In this document: piece by piece, positions 8,290 through 15,538 of the stretch | How the letters are laid out: each line of letters opens with the position of its first letter | Position numbering within the stretch: the first letter of the stretch is position 1 | Assembly: GCA_030524745.1 (NCBI GenBank) | Contig: JAUNGC010000013.1 | Span: 1-64,000, forward strand | Source: Eubacteriales bacterium | Lineage (GTDB): Bacteria > Bacillota > Clostridia > Lachnospirales > Lachnospiraceae | DNA length: 64,000 nt | Direction of reading: 5' to 3' | Program-made: the position numbers and the translations under genes | The notes under the pieces: generated by a model | Told to the model about the DNA's origin: nothing | The model's database searches: none | What the model saw: the letters and a program-made list of their open reading frames with translations, nothing else

Positions 8290-8339
8290 GACAGAAAGAG
8301 CGGGTATAAATCAACGATGCTGAGAGGAGGTGAGAAGAA

Positions 8340-9401
8340 ATGGCGGCATTAACAAAACTGACCACCAACATCAATCTCGAAATGTCTGGAGATACAAAGA
8401 GATTTTTAGTATCTGCAAAGCAGGGGGACAAGGCGACACGATATATTGTTGCAAGGTTATTGAATAACGGCGAACAATATACAATTCCAGAAGGCGCGAG
8501 GGCAGTTGTGAACATCAAAAAGCCAGACGGGAAACATGTATATAATACATGCACCTATTCCGGAGCAGATGTCACGGTGGAATTGACAAATCAGGCACTT
8601 GCGGCAGCAGGAACAGCGTATTGCGACATCGAAATCCGTTCAAGCGATGACGCGCAGGTCATTACGTCCGTATCGTTTACAATCGAAATTGAGGAATCAA
8701 TGAGGAACGATAGCGCAATTTTGTCTGCGAACGAGTTCACGGAACTTGAGGGAAGAATTGCAGGGCATATCAAAAACATTGAGGAGACAGATGCGGCGGC
8801 AAAAAAGGCAGAGGCGGAGCGCGTGGCGGCTGAAAATTTGCGGGTAGAGGCGGAGAATAAGCGTGTTGAAGCAGAGAACATCCGGCAAAAAAATGAAAAT
8901 ACCCGCATTCAGCAGGAAACTAAACGGCAGCAGGACACCTCACAGGCAATCGAGAACGCGCAGAATGCGACAACGGCGGCAATCACCGCGACAAAAGACT
9001 GCAAGGAAACAACTGAACAGGCGAATATTGCATTGCAGAACCAAGAACAGCTTGAGGCAACGTTGAATACTGCAACACAAATCCGGCAGGAAATTTCACA
9101 GATGCAGCAAAGTGTCGAAGCGGCAAAACTGCAGGTGGAACAGAATAAGCAGGAAATTGATGAAATAATTCAAAATTCGCTGCTCGAATCAGCCGAAAAA
9201 ATTCTTGAGAGTGTACAGAATTATTTTGAGAGAGCAGAAGCACTTTATTCAAGCATGTACCTCGATTGCGATGGCGAAACACCATATTTGAGAACGGTGA
9301 CACCTTTATTCATTGATGGAGCAACGCCACAGGTTCGGAGCGTTAATGAGGGAGTTGACTTTGACGGGGGAACACCGACCTCAAGACTGCTCGCAGTATA
9401 A
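8340..9401 (+). CDS. BppU-like upper baseplate protein
   Basis: 353 residues. The first 115 match the BppU N-terminal domain: INLEMSGDTKRFLVSAKQGD, then YTIPEGARAVVNIKKPDGK, TAYCDIEIRSSD and ITSVSFTIEIEES. BppU anchors receptor-binding proteins to the siphovirus baseplate. Residues about 135-300 are a long coiled coil full of AEN and QQE repeats, which would form a trimeric stalk. The last 45 residues are a small beta tail. GGAGGTGAG precedes the ATG. It is two genes upstream of the DGR variable protein, so it may carry that protein. Confidence 0.85.
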   Translation: MAALTKLTTNINLEMSGDTKRFLVSAKQGDKATRYIVARLLNNGEQYTIPEGARAVVNIKKPDGKHVYNTCTYSGADVTVELTNQALAAAGTAYCDIEIRSSDDAQVITSVSFTIEIEESMRNDSAILSANEFTELEGRIAGHIKNIEETDAAAKKAEAERVAAENLRVEAENKRVEAENIRQKNENTRIQQETKRQQDTSQAIENAQNATTAAITATKDCKETTEQANIALQNQEQLEATLNTATQIRQEISQMQQSVEAAKLQVEQNKQEIDEIIQNSLLESAEKILESVQNYFERAEALYSSMYLDCDGETPYLRTVTPLFIDGATPQVRSVNEGVDFDGGTPTSRLLAV

Positions 9402-9441
9402 TTCCATGATATTGGAAAGAATCAGCAGATTTAACACAAGA

Positions 9442-9471
9442 CCGTGATTTTGTGATATTTTGCAATCACGG
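9442..9471 (+). repeat. Inverted repeat ahead of the fibre/DGR genes
   Basis: CCGTGATT at 9442-9449 is repeated inverted as AATCACGG at 9464-9471 with a 14-base loop. It is in the only intergenic gap (9402-9491) between the BppU gene and the DGR target pair. There is no T-run behind it, so it is not a clear terminator. It could be an operator, an attenuator or an mRNA processing hairpin. Confidence 0.5.
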
Positions 9472-9491
9472 GGCAAAGGAGGATTGAGCAA

Positions 9492-9923
9492 ATGGCAGCA
9501 ATCAGACCATGCACCGGAACGACGGCAGACTGGGAGGCAGTCAGAGGGATTCTGATTCTCAAGGAAAGAGAATGCGGAGTTGAATTGACGGCTGACGGTC
9601 ATTATTTAATCAGACAGGGAGATGGTAAAAGCGATTTTTTCGACCTGCCGATTATCGTTAACAATGCGCGTTATGAGGAGATTCTGGAATTAACACAGGG
9701 ATATATGGAGAGTGTGAATAATTTCAGCAAAAGCATGACAGAGGCGGCAAATAATGCTAACGGTGCAGCGACAAAGGCAAATAATGCAGCGACGGCAGCA
9801 AATGCGGCGGCACAGGCATGTGAGGGTATTGTGGATGGTCTCAATACGATGGTTGATACAGTCACAGGTAAATCCTGCGTACTGACCGTTGAGGATGGGA
9901 TTTTGACGATAAGGGAGGCGTAA
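9492..9923 (+). CDS. Fibre-like protein with Mtd-type N-terminal domain
   Basis: 143 residues. The N-terminal 55 residues (RPCTGTTADWEAV, then GVELTADGHYLIRQGDG) resemble the small beta domain at the start of major tropism determinant and other tail-fibre proteins, where a T-T-A-x-W and a D-G-x-x-x-x-G-D-G pattern recur. Residues 75-115 are an Ala/Asn-rich coiled coil, a likely trimerisation stem. The end is a short beta tail. It stops 3 bases before the DGR target gene, so the two proteins are probably made together and may assemble together. The domain match is from memory of the fold and is not certain. Confidence 0.65.
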   Translation: MAAIRPCTGTTADWEAVRGILILKERECGVELTADGHYLIRQGDGKSDFFDLPIIVNNARYEEILELTQGYMESVNNFSKSMTEAANNANGAATKANNAATAANAAAQACEGIVDGLNTMVDTVTGKSCVLTVEDGILTIREA

Positions 9924-9926
9924 AAG

Positions 9927-11222
9927 ATGGCAAGCGGTGATTTGATAGTAAAAGTAGCAGACAAAGACACTCTTGACCGCACATATGCGAATACACGCGC
10001 GATACTCGCGGCGGTTGAGGAGGATGTAAAGGCAAAGGGTGCGAAGCGTTACGGAATCAAAATCAATAAAAATGACAGCAATCCGGCGACGCGCTGCACA
10101 TATCTTTTTGATGCGGTCGGGATGACACCTGCTGCAATGAATTACACGACCGGAGCATTTGATTTTGGAGACTGGGGAGATGTTTTCTTTGTAAAGAATA
10201 ACTATCCGGCAATGGTCAAATACGATGGTACAGAGGACTATAAACTCGACCCGAATGACCACACAAAGAGAGAGGACGGAACGACCGAATCTGATGTCTC
10301 GAATGCAGCGTATGGCGGAAATGCAATGAGTGTGTTTGATGGTAGCGGCGACAAGGGAAAGATTTGGCTGTCCCAGTACGAGATCGGGAACTATGAATAC
10401 ATGGTGATTTCAAATGTACAGTACGATGAATCATACAATGATGATGCATATGTGAGGGAGGACGGTTCTCACGCTGACAAACTCTATTATCCGATGTTTG
10501 GCGGTTCGTATGACGGGACGCGAATCCGGTCGCTGGCGGGACAAACGCTTATGTACCAGACTAACGCATCGACAGAGATTACAAGGGCAAAGGCAAACGG
10601 TAGCGGATGGAATATCGGCTCATGGAGCAAGAGAAATCTGTTGAATTGTATGCTGAAAATTATGTCAAAGACAGACAATTCGCAGGCTGCTTTCGGGCAG
10701 GGGCAGACATCCGGCTATGTGGATGATGCATCGGTGAATTATGGTCATCTTGACACCGGAACGCTCAAGGATAAAGGACAGTTTTTCGGTTACAACGATA
10801 CAACTCACGAGGTAAAGGTTTTCTTTATTGAAAAGTGGTGGGGGAATCGTTGGGACAGAATCAACGGACTTTTAATGAAAGCCGGGGAAATTCTTGTTAA
10901 AATGGCACCGCCGTATAATCTGACAGGCGACGGGTATGAAAAGGTTGGTATCCAGTTTGCGGGACAGAGCAATGGCTATCAGAAAGAAACAATGTCGAGC
11001 AGATTCGGAAGATTGCCGAAAGCTGTTGGAGGTAGCAGTTCCACATATACCTGCGATAATTTTTACTGGAATGCCGGAATTACTGCGGTCGCGCTCGTCG
11101 GCGGCCACTGTAACAACGGCGCTTACTGCGGGGCGGATTGCTTGGATTTGAACTCTTCTGCGTCGAATGCGGCCTGGAACATCGGTGCGTCCGTTTTCTT
11201 AGAACAGCCTATAGCTGCGTAA
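9927..11222 (+). CDS. DGR variable protein (phage host-recognition protein, C-type-lectin-like end)
   Basis: 431 residues. The C-terminal portion, about 210-431, has the layout of the C-type-lectin/formylglycine-generating-enzyme-like fold used by DGR targets: GSWSKRNLLNCML, then WWGNRWDRINGL, then a Gly- and aromatic-rich end. The last 40 residues are encoded by the variable repeat at 11083-11200. Residues differing from the template are H394, Y400, C405, D407, S410, A416 and V423, all at Asn or Tyr codons of the template. By analogy with Mtd of Bordetella phage BPP-1 it should bind a host surface molecule. It ends 115 bases before the TR. Confidence 0.9.
   Translation: MASGDLIVKVADKDTLDRTYANTRAILAAVEEDVKAKGAKRYGIKINKNDSNPATRCTYLFDAVGMTPAAMNYTTGAFDFGDWGDVFFVKNNYPAMVKYDGTEDYKLDPNDHTKREDGTTESDVSNAAYGGNAMSVFDGSGDKGKIWLSQYEIGNYEYMVISNVQYDESYNDDAYVREDGSHADKLYYPMFGGSYDGTRIRSLAGQTLMYQTNASTEITRAKANGSGWNIGSWSKRNLLNCMLKIMSKTDNSQAAFGQGQTSGYVDDASVNYGHLDTGTLKDKGQFFGYNDTTHEVKVFFIEKWWGNRWDRINGLLMKAGEILVKMAPPYNLTGDGYEKVGIQFAGQSNGYQKETMSSRFGRLPKAVGGSSSTYTCDNFYWNAGITAVALVGGHCNNGAYCGADCLDLNSSASNAAWNIGASVFLEQPIAA
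11083..11200 (+). repeat. DGR variable repeat (VR)
   Basis: 118 bp at the 3' end of the variable protein gene, a near copy of 11338-11455 at a constant offset of 255. I find 11 mismatches, at VR positions 11106, 11124, 11135, 11140, 11145, 11154, 11155, 11172, 11173, 11193 and 11194. At each of them the TR base is A and the VR base is C, T or G. Identity outside TR adenines is complete. The last substitutions are only 6 bases from the 3' end of the match. Confidence 0.97.
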
Positions 11223-11227
11223 GCAGC
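11214..11227 (+). other. Small hairpin at the target gene stop, just after VR
   Basis: GCTGC (11214-11218), loop GTAA, GCAGC (11223-11227) spans the TAA stop of the variable protein gene, 13 bases after VR ends. In BPP-1 a hairpin with a four-base loop just behind VR raises the efficiency of retrohoming. This one has the same place and loop size but a shorter 5-bp stem. The role is inferred from that parallel. Confidence 0.55.
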
Positions 11228-11238
11228 AGGGGGAGGAA

Positions 11239-11277
11239 CGGAGGGGGAACGCCTCCGCAATTCCCGCCGTAGGCGGG
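11239..11277 (+). other. Two hairpins between VR and TR
   Basis: CGGAGG (11239-11244) can pair with CCTCCG (11252-11257), and CCCGCC (11263-11268) with GGCGGG (11272-11277) around a 3-base loop. Both lie in the non-coding leader of the TR. They could fold the 5' part of the template RNA or end part of the tail transcripts; there is no T-run after either. Confidence 0.5.
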
Positions 11278-11337
11278 TGATCGTATTGAATGTGAATATT
11301 TGGGATATAGGATGCGGTGTCGGGGTGTTCCTGCTCC

Positions 11338-11455
11338 CTGCGGTCGCGCTCGTCGGCGGCAACTGTAACAACGGCGCTAACTGCGGGGCAGATTACTTGA
11401 ATTTGAACAATTCTGCGTCGAATGCGAACTGGAACATCGGTGCGTCCAATTTCTT
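11338..11455 (+). repeat. DGR template repeat (TR), non-coding RNA template
   Basis: 118 bp with about 26 adenines, most of them in AAC/AAT codons when read in the target frame, which is typical of a DGR template. It gives the sequence from which cDNA is copied with errors at adenines and then placed into VR. It lies 115 bases after the target gene and 124 bases before the RT gene. A short open frame runs through it (11277-11462), but it simply mirrors the target protein and has no ribosome binding site. The stretch 11456-11579 probably belongs to the template RNA as the RT recognition part. Confidence 0.95.
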
Positions 11456-11579
11456 CTCATAACGGAGCGTTTAATCAAATGCAGCCTATATTCCACGCCA
11501 CACGGCGAAAATCATTCCGGTATAGGGTCGGTTGAGTAGGCAGAAGCACAAAAACCGATAGGAGATAAGAAAATACGAA

Positions 11580-12929
11580 ATGAGAAGTTATAACAACCTA
11601 TACGAACCGATGCTGCAAGATGAATACATTCAAAAATGTTTCAGGGATGCGGCAAAAAAGAAAAGAAAACGGAACGATGTACAAAGGATATTAGATAACA
11701 TTGATACAGAGGTCGGGATTCTCAAACAAATCTTACAAGAAGAAATGTTCCTTCCGAGTTATCATGAAAAGTGCATCATAAATGAAAACAATTATCTTAA
11801 AACACGGAGGATTTTGAAACCAAGCTATAAATATGAGCAGGTTGTCCATCATTGCGCGATAGGTCAGTTCAAGCCGATTGTGATGAATGGTCTTTATGAG
11901 TTTTCATGCGGGAGCGTACCGAAAAGGGGTGTGCATTACGGGAAAAAATTCATGAAAAAGTGGATTGAATCGTATAACGGGAAAAAGATGTATATTCTCA
12001 AAATGGATATACACCATTTCTTTGAATCAATCGATAGGACTATTTTGAAAAAGAAATTGCAGGAGGCAATCAGAGACCGGAGATTTTATCGACTGATGTG
12101 TGTATTTGTTGAATACGATCGAATCGCAGAGACCGTCAAGATACTGGAAGATGTGGCGACAGAGATGAGCATAGACGGGGTCAGATGTTTGGTTTCGTGC
12201 ATTGCATTTGATGATGACATGGAAGCACTGGAAATTCTGCGGGGTGCAGGCGTAGCGGGAGAGACATTTATTGCTGTACGGGATGTAATATACAGCAGGA
12301 GAAAAGGTGTTCCGTTGGGATATTTTACATCACAATGGTTCGGAAATTTCTATCTCAAGAAGCTAGACCACTATATAAAACAGGAATTAAGTGCAGAACA
12401 TTACATGCGGTATATGGACGACATGGTCATATTAGGAAAAAGCAAAAAGAAACTTCATAAAATCCGGACGGTTATCAAGGGGTATTTGCAGGACGAATTA
12501 AAACTTGAGTTAAAAGGTGATTGGCAAGTGTTCCGGTTCGAGTACGAGGGAAAGGATGGAAAGGTATATGGGCGGATGCTTGATTTCATGGGATTCCAAT
12601 TTCATCATGATCGGATAACGATGCGGAAGTCAACGATTCAGCGAGCAAGAGCAAAAGCCATGAGGATTGCCGCAAAGGAAAAAGTGACATGGTACGATGC
12701 AGCGACGATGTTGTCATATATGGGATGGTTCAACCACACGGACACATATGACTATTATCAGAGGTACATCAAGCCGAATGTGAACGTCAAGAAACTTAAG
12801 AAAATTGTATCAAATCATCAGCGAAAGGAGAATGAACGTGAGAGAATGGCACAAAGTAACGGGAACGCAGCAGGAGAGACCGGAGGAGATCGACAGAACA
12901 TCCTCGCCGTCAACCGTGTATCTGCGTAG
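11580..12929 (+). CDS. DGR reverse transcriptase
   Basis: 449 residues. RT motifs in order: ILKPSYKYEQVVHHC (about 78-92), catalytic Asp in LKMDIHHFFESID (D143), GVPLGYFTSQWFGNFYL (243-259) with the DGR-type S-Q in place of the usual Q-G, YMRYMDDMVILG with the YMDD box at 278-281, LKLEL (307-311), and LDFMGFQFH (334-342). No maturase, endonuclease or msr/msd elements are seen, which argues against a group II intron or retron. The enzyme copies TR RNA with adenine-directed errors. It is longer than the 328-residue BPP-1 enzyme, partly from extra sequence between D143 and the SQ motif. Its last 33 codons overlap the next gene. Confidence 0.95.
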   Translation: MRSYNNLYEPMLQDEYIQKCFRDAAKKKRKRNDVQRILDNIDTEVGILKQILQEEMFLPSYHEKCIINENNYLKTRRILKPSYKYEQVVHHCAIGQFKPIVMNGLYEFSCGSVPKRGVHYGKKFMKKWIESYNGKKMYILKMDIHHFFESIDRTILKKKLQEAIRDRRFYRLMCVFVEYDRIAETVKILEDVATEMSIDGVRCLVSCIAFDDDMEALEILRGAGVAGETFIAVRDVIYSRRKGVPLGYFTSQWFGNFYLKKLDHYIKQELSAEHYMRYMDDMVILGKSKKKLHKIRTVIKGYLQDELKLELKGDWQVFRFEYEGKDGKVYGRMLDFMGFQFHHDRITMRKSTIQRARAKAMRIAAKEKVTWYDAATMLSYMGWFNHTDTYDYYQRYIKPNVNVKKLKKIVSNHQRKENERERMAQSNGNAAGETGGDRQNILAVNRVSA

Positions 12930-13158
12930 GAATATCAGTAAAGTGCAGCAGGAAAGCGCAGAGGGAGACGAAAAAGCGGTTGACGTGTGGGAGTATGAGG
13001 AACGGGAACTGACTGTCGAAGAATATGAGCAGATGCTTCTTATGCAGCAGGTTGTCGAGCAGAACACAGCAGGAATTGTCGAATCTGTCACGGCATTTCA
13101 AAAAGATGCGGTTATTGATGAATATACAGAGCAGTTGATCGAGGAGGGGGTGATTTAA
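12832..13158 (+). CDS. Small phage tail-region protein overlapping the RT gene
   Basis: 108 residues from ATG 12832, which has GAAAGGAGA just ahead. The N-terminus (MNVREWHKV, then SSPSTVYLRRNI) is the kind seen in a common small prophage protein lying before xkdX: a short polar lead and the pattern VYLRRNI. The C-terminal half is acidic (ELTVEEYEQMLLMQQ). The first 98 bases overlap the end of the RT gene in another frame. Its TAA overlaps the next ATG (TAATG). Function unknown. Confidence 0.8.
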   Translation: MNVREWHKVTGTQQERPEEIDRTSSPSTVYLRRNISKVQQESAEGDEKAVDVWEYEERELTVEEYEQMLLMQQVVEQNTAGIVESVTAFQKDAVIDEYTEQLIEEGVI

Positions 13159-14737: not shown

Positions 14738-15538
14738 ATGAGTATCTCAAATTGTGGACACGATGAAAATAATAAATATAGCGGAGGAACAGCAGGAGAT
14801 CAGACTGGAACAGAGTGGGCGATCATTAACTGGTATAACAGACCGTGGAAATGTGTTCTCCGACATCCGGATGCAAAAGTCAGAGCGAAAATCGCAGAAC
14901 TGGCAAAGGCAGCAGCGAACAACAATAAGATCGGTTATGACCAGTCACAGAGGGGGACATTTTGGACGCAGTTGCAAAAAGCGAATTACAATCCGGCAAA
15001 TATTACAACAGCTTGCGAGGCAGACTGTTCAAGTGGTGTTTCTGCGATCGTGAAAGCGGTCGGATATTTACTGAACATCACATTGCTCAAAAACGTAAAT
15101 GCATCACTCACCACAAGCGGAATGCGGGCAGCGTTCAAAAACGCAGGATTTACCGTATTGACAGACAGCAAATATCTGACATCGGATGCGTATTTGCTTG
15201 AGGGTGATATTCTGTTGAATGATGGAGCGCACACAGCGACCAATCTGACGAATGGGTCAATGGCGACCGCGTCGGACGGAACAAAAGTAGATATCAAAGT
15301 TGATGCTGCACAAAAATTCGACAAGAGCCTTGCAGGAAAATACAAGGTCACAGCATCGGACTTTTTAGCATTAAGGGCAGGGGCAGGAACGAGCAAAACA
15401 GAACTTGCAAGGATGAAAACAAACGAGACGGTGCAGTGTTATGGATATTACACGAGTGTTTCCGGTACAAAGTGGCTTTATATTGTATATAACGGAATCA
15501 CAGGTTTTGCATCAAGCGCATATCTCAAAAAACAGTAG
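14738..15538 (+). CDS. Endolysin: NlpC/P60- or CHAP-like peptidase with SH3 domain
   Basis: 266 residues. Residues 1-190 form a cysteine-peptidase-type domain with Cys in CEADCSSGVSAI and His in GDILLNDGAHTA, the Cys/His spacing of NlpC/P60 and CHAP enzymes. Residues 200-266 are a bacterial SH3 domain (YKVTASDFLALRAGAGTSK, ending WLYIVYNGITGFASSAYLKK) that binds cell wall. No signal peptide, as expected for a holin-dependent lysin. This architecture is common in Lachnospiraceae phages. It probably cuts peptide bonds of peptidoglycan. Confidence 0.85.
   Translation: MSISNCGHDENNKYSGGTAGDQTGTEWAIINWYNRPWKCVLRHPDAKVRAKIAELAKAAANNNKIGYDQSQRGTFWTQLQKANYNPANITTACEADCSSGVSAIVKAVGYLLNITLLKNVNASLTTSGMRAAFKNAGFTVLTDSKYLTSDAYLLEGDILLNDGAHTATNLTNGSMATASDGTKVDIKVDAAQKFDKSLAGKYKVTASDFLALRAGAGTSKTELARMKTNETVQCYGYYTSVSGTKWLYIVYNGITGFASSAYLKKQ

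Follow-up and report, generated by a model that had tools for sequence, protein, structure and literature searches.

The window analyzed here, a 64,000-nucleotide stretch at the start of contig JAUNGC010000013.1 (C6 in our numbering) in the genome GCA_030524745.1 of a Lachnospiraceae bacterium (3.57 Mb in 63 contigs), very probably carries a complete phage diversity-generating retroelement (DGR) that works by mutagenic retrohoming. Its parts lie on the + strand in the following order: a gene for a variable tail protein (VP) with the variable repeat (VR) at its 3′ end, a non-coding template repeat (TR) and a gene for a reverse transcriptase (RT) with a YMDD motif, with tail genes before them and an endolysin gene after them (Table 1). 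A preliminary description of the locus had claimed this arrangement between baseplate and lysis genes, as well as the absence of stops; both are borne out by the open reading frames (ORFs), those of VP and RT being open throughout, the repeat search and the Pfam matches of the neighboring genes. We assign the element to the DGRs because of the adenine-only mismatches between its repeats, the features of its RT (YMDD and SQ motifs, match to the structure 8ub7 and position in the RT tree) and the match of the VP profile to those of DGRs that encode the accessory protein Avd (Avd-positive). Along with this anatomy, the RT clade and the adenine bias, covariation around TR and the recent adenine-only divergence of a close relative carry the reading.

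A repeat search made without adenine bias pairs positions 11083-11200 (VR) with TR in a 118-bp match of 91% identity, in agreement with the claim that the two can be aligned end to end: the mismatches lie opposite TR adenines in 11 cases out of 11 (26 A in 118; hypergeometric 8e-9). At 11193-11194, TR has AA and VR has GT throughout the nearest subclade, which comprises eight loci (the window and the related loci L006, L008, L009, L010, L011, L067 and L068), and the constant TTTTCTTAGAACAGCC comes after this GT in each of them. Because it is constant in 8/8 loci, we regard the GT as part of a fixed 3′ end and not as a product of homing; once these two sites are set aside, 9/9 mismatches fall at TR adenines (24 A of 116; p = 1.7e-7). 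Elsewhere in its own genome TR finds no match other than itself and VR. The mutable adenines fall in 14 codons of VR, none of which can become a stop, and the theoretical repertoire amounts to about 4e13 proteins. The VP-TR-RT order recurs in relatives.

The profile of VP matches the VPs of Avd-positive DGRs with a match probability of 97.6%, and one of these is an FGE-sulfatase by Pfam; among solved structures 5vf4 alone was matched, weakly (E 0.014). Judged by these profiles, the binding face of VP is probably lectin-like. The VP alignment (A5) comprises the window and 28 of the 44 VPs from loci in which no Avd was found (Avd-less). Relatives of VP whose fetched surroundings hold no RT were also seen (L125, L124, L098, L103, L104 and L107); hence, the variable tail protein also exists without a DGR nearby.

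The catalytic Asp and YMDD motif ascribed to the RT in the preliminary description are both there, as Asp143 in motif A and as YMDD at residues 278-281, together with SQ at 251-252. The best solved relative is 8ub7 (E 1.4e-69; the top-scoring group II RT reaches 2.9e-40), a protein that we take to be Brt, the RT of Bordetella phage BPP-1, whose length of 328 residues it shares. In the RT tree, the window RT groups with BPP-1 and the Avd-positive RTs, away from L001 and L090, which were labelled group II by eye; the tree, 8ub7 and the SQ and YMDD motifs place it inside, not outside, the DGR clade. There it belongs to a clade of 53 rows separate from the Avd-positive RTs (support 100/99), while the fork of the Avd-positive rows has a support of 95/73. 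The deep forks are unsure because of long branches (L001, L090, BPP-1, L066 and L082). The RT alignment (A2) holds 58 of 64 rows (L007, L082 and L084-L087 were omitted), and SQ is present in 53/58, a count made without L007.

The remaining RTs offer observations of their own. SQ is replaced in some natural DGR RTs, by SG along with YADD in L017 and L069, and by SH in L023, L045 and L079; despite the SG/YADD RT, the VR/TR differences lie at adenines in 11/13 cases in L017 and 9/12 in L069 (110 nt). These five loci bear on the proposal, made in passages of PMC3521204 where the YxDD/SQ motif is named, that SQ sets adenine mutagenesis. The close relative L007 (511-1929) has YMGD instead of YMDD in its assembled sequence, and is either an inactive copy or an assembly error. 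The window's own genome has a second RT on contig C4 (L002:1225-2529), an antiviral Drt2 by its PADLOC profile (4.2e-141), and a third on contig C37 (L001) whose appearance, judged by eye, is that of a group II intron RT. The same-genus genome G005 has, on separate contigs, two RTs related to that of the window (L089 and L091); the match to each falls into two pieces, one TGA being present within a matched piece.

Comparisons between VRs of related loci point to recent diversification, including within the subclade to which the window belongs, which bears an RT insertion described below. Counted over a fixed 118-nt span, the VRs of L067 and L068 differ at 14/25 TR-adenine sites, 0/93 other sites and 0/333 flanking sites, with 86 differences over some 10 kb around. 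The VR counts for these two loci come from a fixed span, as runs cut at non-adenine mismatches would give zero at non-adenine sites by construction. Of the other pairs, L032/L034 have 14 differences at A and none elsewhere in the VR span (two outside it), L049/L050 have 18 at A and one elsewhere, and L015/L016 have eight at A and none elsewhere (90 nt); the Avd-positive L057/L058 have 15 at A and one elsewhere, with 27 outside. In pairs with less similar TRs the counts at A and non-A sites are 10/2 (L008/L067), 21/2 (L042/L043) and 11/4 (L010/L011).

The surroundings of TR have the marks of a structured RNA. A consensus fold of 12 subclade loci features a stem that encloses TR, a hairpin past the VP stop codon and two hairpins between TR and RT. 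In this structure, which was derived from the very alignment used for counting and is thereby favored, 96.4% of the cells are paired, versus 37-45% when it is slid and 84.3% in shuffles; 16/30 pairs of the stem and hairpins show changes on both sides, and four of five structure measures exceed all 500 shuffles. Initial tests, which set the energy of the stem or the best local stem against those obtained with swapped flanks, gave noisy results (21% of swaps equalled the energy of the window's own stem), and the evidence used is that of the pair counts and of an anchored test. In the latter, which covers 55 loci, the own flank fits the own 3′ arm above all divergent swapped arms in 33; at a cut of 11, 37/55 own combinations and 17/30 distinct arm types pass, versus 249/2750 swaps. 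The notion that the TR-enclosing stem is peculiar to this lineage was weakened, as BPP-1 and some Avd-positive loci also show a 5′ TR flank complementary to sequence 56-119 nt past TR: L059, L083 and BPP-1 score above every swap, L061 and L062 have one another as their sole equals, and the other five are unremarkable.

Between TR and RT, the Rfam family RT-18 (RF03021) is matched over the full model length at 45.3 bits, which exceeds the curated gathering threshold of 41.3. A model of our own (R1), built from 16 loci with the window among its training rows, gives the window 83.4 bits; its alignment (A4) took 16 of the 21 rows of A3, with L025, L031, L047, L070 and L072 omitted for poor or partial alignment. 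R1 finds 66/84 sources, all on the + strand and most ending a few tens of bases from the RT start, with E near 1 for the weakest matches. No R1 match was found in 18/84 sources: the eleven Avd-positive loci L057-L066 and L083, BPP-1, L080-L082, and L018, L046 and L048, which have little or nothing upstream of RT. An Rfam scan of 14 of 18 sources of related loci (L025, L044, L051 and L064 were omitted for size) placed RT-18 above gathering in 10 and RT-4 in L056, and found neither in L021, L031 and the Avd-positive L059.

Table 1. Features of the DGR and its neighborhood (positions in the window)
Feature	Position	Strand	Evidence or remark
Baseplate-type protein, BppU N-terminal domain, upstream neighbor	8340..9401	+	Pfam BppU_N 2.4e-14
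Variable tail protein (VP), 431 aa, VR at 3′ end	9927..11222	+	PHROG 5302 tail protein 2.4e-79
VR, adenine-variable part (similarity to TR continues to 11200)	11083..11192	+	9/9 mismatches at TR adenines
Fixed element at VR 3′ end, like an initiation of mutagenic homing (IMH) site	11193..11209	+	Identical in eight nearest-subclade loci, unlike TR counterpart
5-bp hairpin, VP stop codon within GTAA loop	11214..11227	+	Stem letters vary among relatives, pairing kept
Second hairpin past VR, 6-bp stem, 7-nt loop	11239..11257	+	2/6 pairs with changes on both sides
5′ arm of TR-enclosing stem	11302..11315	+	8/13 pairs with changes on both sides
Template repeat (TR)	11338..11455	+	Repeat search, adenine mismatches
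3′ arm of TR-enclosing stem	11481..11494	+	Consensus fold, anchored test, pair counts
Structured RNA between TR and RT	11493..11574	+	Rfam RT-18 (RF03021) at 11496-11572; own model R1
DGR reverse transcriptase, 449 aa	11580..12929	+	Pfam RVT_1 1.5e-8; PHROG "Reverse transcriptase" 4.6e-90
31-residue units within RT (residues 171-201, 202-232)	12090-12182 and 12183-12275	+	Offset-31 score peak
60-residue insertion between RT motifs A and B	12111..12290	+	Limits approximate, from alignment
Small ORF overlapping RT end	12832..13158	+	Judged tail-module gene
Endolysin-like protein, downstream context	14738..15538	+	Pfam ELLD 9.6e-74, SH3_3

The RT itself is enlarged. The spacing from motif A to motif B is 99 residues in the window and 15 further loci (L006-L016, L018, L067, L068 and L084) and 39 in most sisters where a pattern finds both motifs; in many sisters the pattern misses motif B, and their short form is taken from the alignment, where the window has 100 columns between the motifs and the Avd-positive RTs 41-62. 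RTs with the insertion form a single branch of 14 rows (98/90). The insertion, of a constant 60 residues in this subclade, looks like two 31-residue repeats: over 14 related rows, residues 171-201 against 202-232 (offset 31) give a mean BLOSUM score of +11.8, while every other offset from 20 to 42 stays below -14. BLASTP returned no alignment for the two units of the window alone, the repeat being visible only as this multi-row score peak. The tail past the MGW motif has a median of 56 residues and a net charge of +6 in 48 Avd-less rows versus 32.5 and +1 in eight Avd-positive ones, a small sample with lengths that depend on ORF cut points, and the segment preceding LDFMGF has 22 residues versus 12 in the same numbers of rows.

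Putting these elements together, we propose that the stem around TR would close it off in a folded TR-containing RNA, from which the RT-18-like RNA would present TR to the RT. The RT would bind this RNA and copy TR, misincorporating opposite adenines. With the fixed 3′ element and the hairpins beyond VR as guides, the resulting complementary DNA (cDNA) would then take the place of the VR in which the tail-protein gene ends. In this way, the probable lectin-like binding face could vary at fourteen codons, never into a stop, and the homing would proceed without Avd, unlike in BPP-1. If it homes in this manner, the phage may be able to retarget its host, as the preliminary description suggested, with a presumable effect on host range.

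The VR-TR distance is 138 nt in the window and 71-184 nt in most Avd-less loci. In L023, L045 and L079 it is 260-403 nt and holds an ORF (67-73 aa) that does not resemble Avd on visual inspection, and in the outgroup (L057-L066 and L083) it is 479-583 nt with an ORF of 117-142 aa, although in L058 the longest frame listed for the interval is another one. The two outgroup ORFs tested are bAvd by Pfam (L064, 3e-32; L057, 9e-34). Passages of PMC10053308 state that the majority of DGRs encode Avd, and a DGR without an accessory gene is mentioned in PMC4159848. The small ORF that overlaps the RT end was considered as an Avd replacement or other DGR accessory. This was rejected, since in L125 and L124 members of its family come after VP genes although the sequence fetched there contains no RT.

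Several observations weigh against a complete and working DGR. The VR-TR interval of the window has no ORF of at least 60 aa, so the cassette holds no Avd gene, and the bAvd profile (PF22296) matched 0/18 Avd-less genomes or records (the own genome, which is 93% complete, the L067 and L068 genomes, twelve viral contigs and three phages). These 18, which cover part of the RT clade and whose viral records may be fragments, belong to a search of 24 whole genomes or records; the controls (BPP-1 and the records of L058, L059, L060, L063 and L064) matched in 6/6 cases. The profile PF05635 matched none of its controls and was uninformative for the own genome. The fifth structure measure, that of further pair types, is equalled by 71/500 shuffles, and 22/55 loci give a negative or unclear result in the stem test, some of whose misses look like misplaced anchors: L027, L041, L051 and L056 have stems, while L021, L022, L024 and L044 show no clear stem. 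The hairpins past VR do not fit the published form, described in passages of Guo et al. 2011 (PMC3240598) as GC-rich stems of 7-10 bp with GRNA loops. Finally, no second copy of this phage with a different VR was found, and a TR pattern with masked adenines had 0 matches in viral_contigs.

As for the hairpins, GATA loops on 5-9 bp stems occur in several Avd-positive loci. Hairpins of at least 5 bp surround the VP stop codon in 13/39 Avd-less loci versus 0/9 other loci, the latter including L081, whose Avd status was not established; across all longer frames of these loci, VP stops included, they occur at 24/569 stops.

With regard to Avd, the claim that all essential parts are intact stands for the RT motifs, the open ORFs and the VR/TR pair; it needs a qualifier because Avd, essential in BPP-1 according to passages of PMC12875486, was not found here. 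That requirement is also what would speak for a missed Avd-type helper of another family, encoded by phage or host and acting in trans, as would the incompleteness of the host genome and the existence of the accessory types HRDC and MSL (passages of PMC10053308), families beyond those covered by our searches. We consider such a helper unlikely given the contrast between the Avd-less records and the positive controls in the bAvd search, and given that the sole small ORF regularly beside the RT also occurs without one. A tentative suggestion, which we rate as somewhat less doubtful than the helper, is that the RT has itself assumed the job of Avd, with its basic tail, the segment before LDFMGF and the insertion making direct contact with both the stem around TR and the RT-18-like RNA. 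If true, this would be a DGR requiring nothing beyond RNA and RT. The insertion as a general Avd substitute was rejected because it marks a single subclade, while Avd is missing across the whole clade.

It is rather improbable that the DGR was recently silenced, i.e., that its parts look intact in a prophage that is uninduced or a cassette out of use. Variation of this VR was indeed not seen in the own genome or in viral_contigs, the YMGD of L007 means that such loss happens or that the assembly errs, and passages of PMC3521204 describe broken-RT DGRs whose VR/TR pairs still show A mutations only. Yet here the RT is open with all its motifs, the RNA is conserved by the RT-18 match and the pair counts, and the 118-bp VR/TR match is free of non-adenine changes. 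That there is no DGR at all, just a group II intron-type RT lying by chance beside a duplicated gene end, is scarcely credible in the face of the adenine-only mismatches, the recurring gene order, the RT tree and the SQ motif, even though the Pfam and NCBIfam matches of the RT are only to general or other RT families and below the NCBIfam cut-offs.

The wider locus is that of a prophage whose tail and lysis module lies within the first 16 kb of the window (tape measure protein, BppU_N baseplate-type protein and endolysin-like protein). The + strand of contig C42 carries genes for TerL and portal near the contig end; this gene order makes it probable that the prophage is divided between two contigs, with its head half on C42. 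Upstream of TerL and portal there are ParA-like (L114:1494-2288) and ParB-like (L114:3142-4608) genes by PHROG matches; lying on the probable left arm of the prophage, they raise the possibility of a phage-plasmid history. Based on the sources of its relatives, the host is probably a gut bacterium.

DGRs are common in phages and, Avd-less ones included, already known; the window presents a DGR with variant parts. In the portions searched of PMC3240598, PMC12875486, PMC6642488, PMC8144416, PMC10743442, PMC4159848, PMC10053308, PMC8867640 and PMC3521204 we found no description of the RT insertion, the link between RT-18 and DGRs or the TR-enclosing stem, which is a weak negative. Thus far, the findings point to an entire RT clade for which the search yielded no Avd and members of which have recently diversified VR at adenines, and they tie the Rfam RNA RT-18 to the TR-RT spacer of this clade; such a compact RNA-plus-RT cassette offers a means of asking what Avd does elsewhere. 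A 2025 study by Handa and colleagues reportedly describes how RNA from either flank of TR lies around the BPP-1 RT, and the enclosing stem may be part of what it covers.

Of the known systems compared, BPP-1 (mtd-avd-TR-brt) likewise has a tail gene with VR at its 3′ end, a TR upstream of the RT on the same strand and a homologous RT, and 16 nt of its 5′ TR flank are complementary to sequence 65-80 nt past TR. It differs in having Avd and a canonical VR hairpin, in giving no R1 match and in lacking the 60-residue RT insertion, a spacing judged from its Avd-positive relatives and not from BPP-1 itself. Among members of the Avd-less clade, the annotated RTs of Butyrivibrio phages Arawn and Idris, Faecalibacterium phage FP_Epona and Lactobacillus phage LBR48 are only 35-37% identical to that of the window, and no insertion is seen in those of their rows in which motifs A and B could both be located or aligned; VP relatives are present in Arawn, Idris and Epona, and the bAvd search was negative in Idris, Epona and LBR48. 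Much closer is Bacteriophage sp. MT835666.1 from human faeces, whose VP and RT are 85.5% and 60.1% identical over the whole query and which has the RT insertion, a TR and a VR; however, when the first 17 kb of the window were compared with it, the nucleotide match was confined to 8319-12532, and its RT row is without a stretch before motif A. The mouse-gut Lachnospiraceae L067 and L068 have TR and VR sequences of their own, while sharing with the window an RT of 81% identity, the insertion and the same RNA element.

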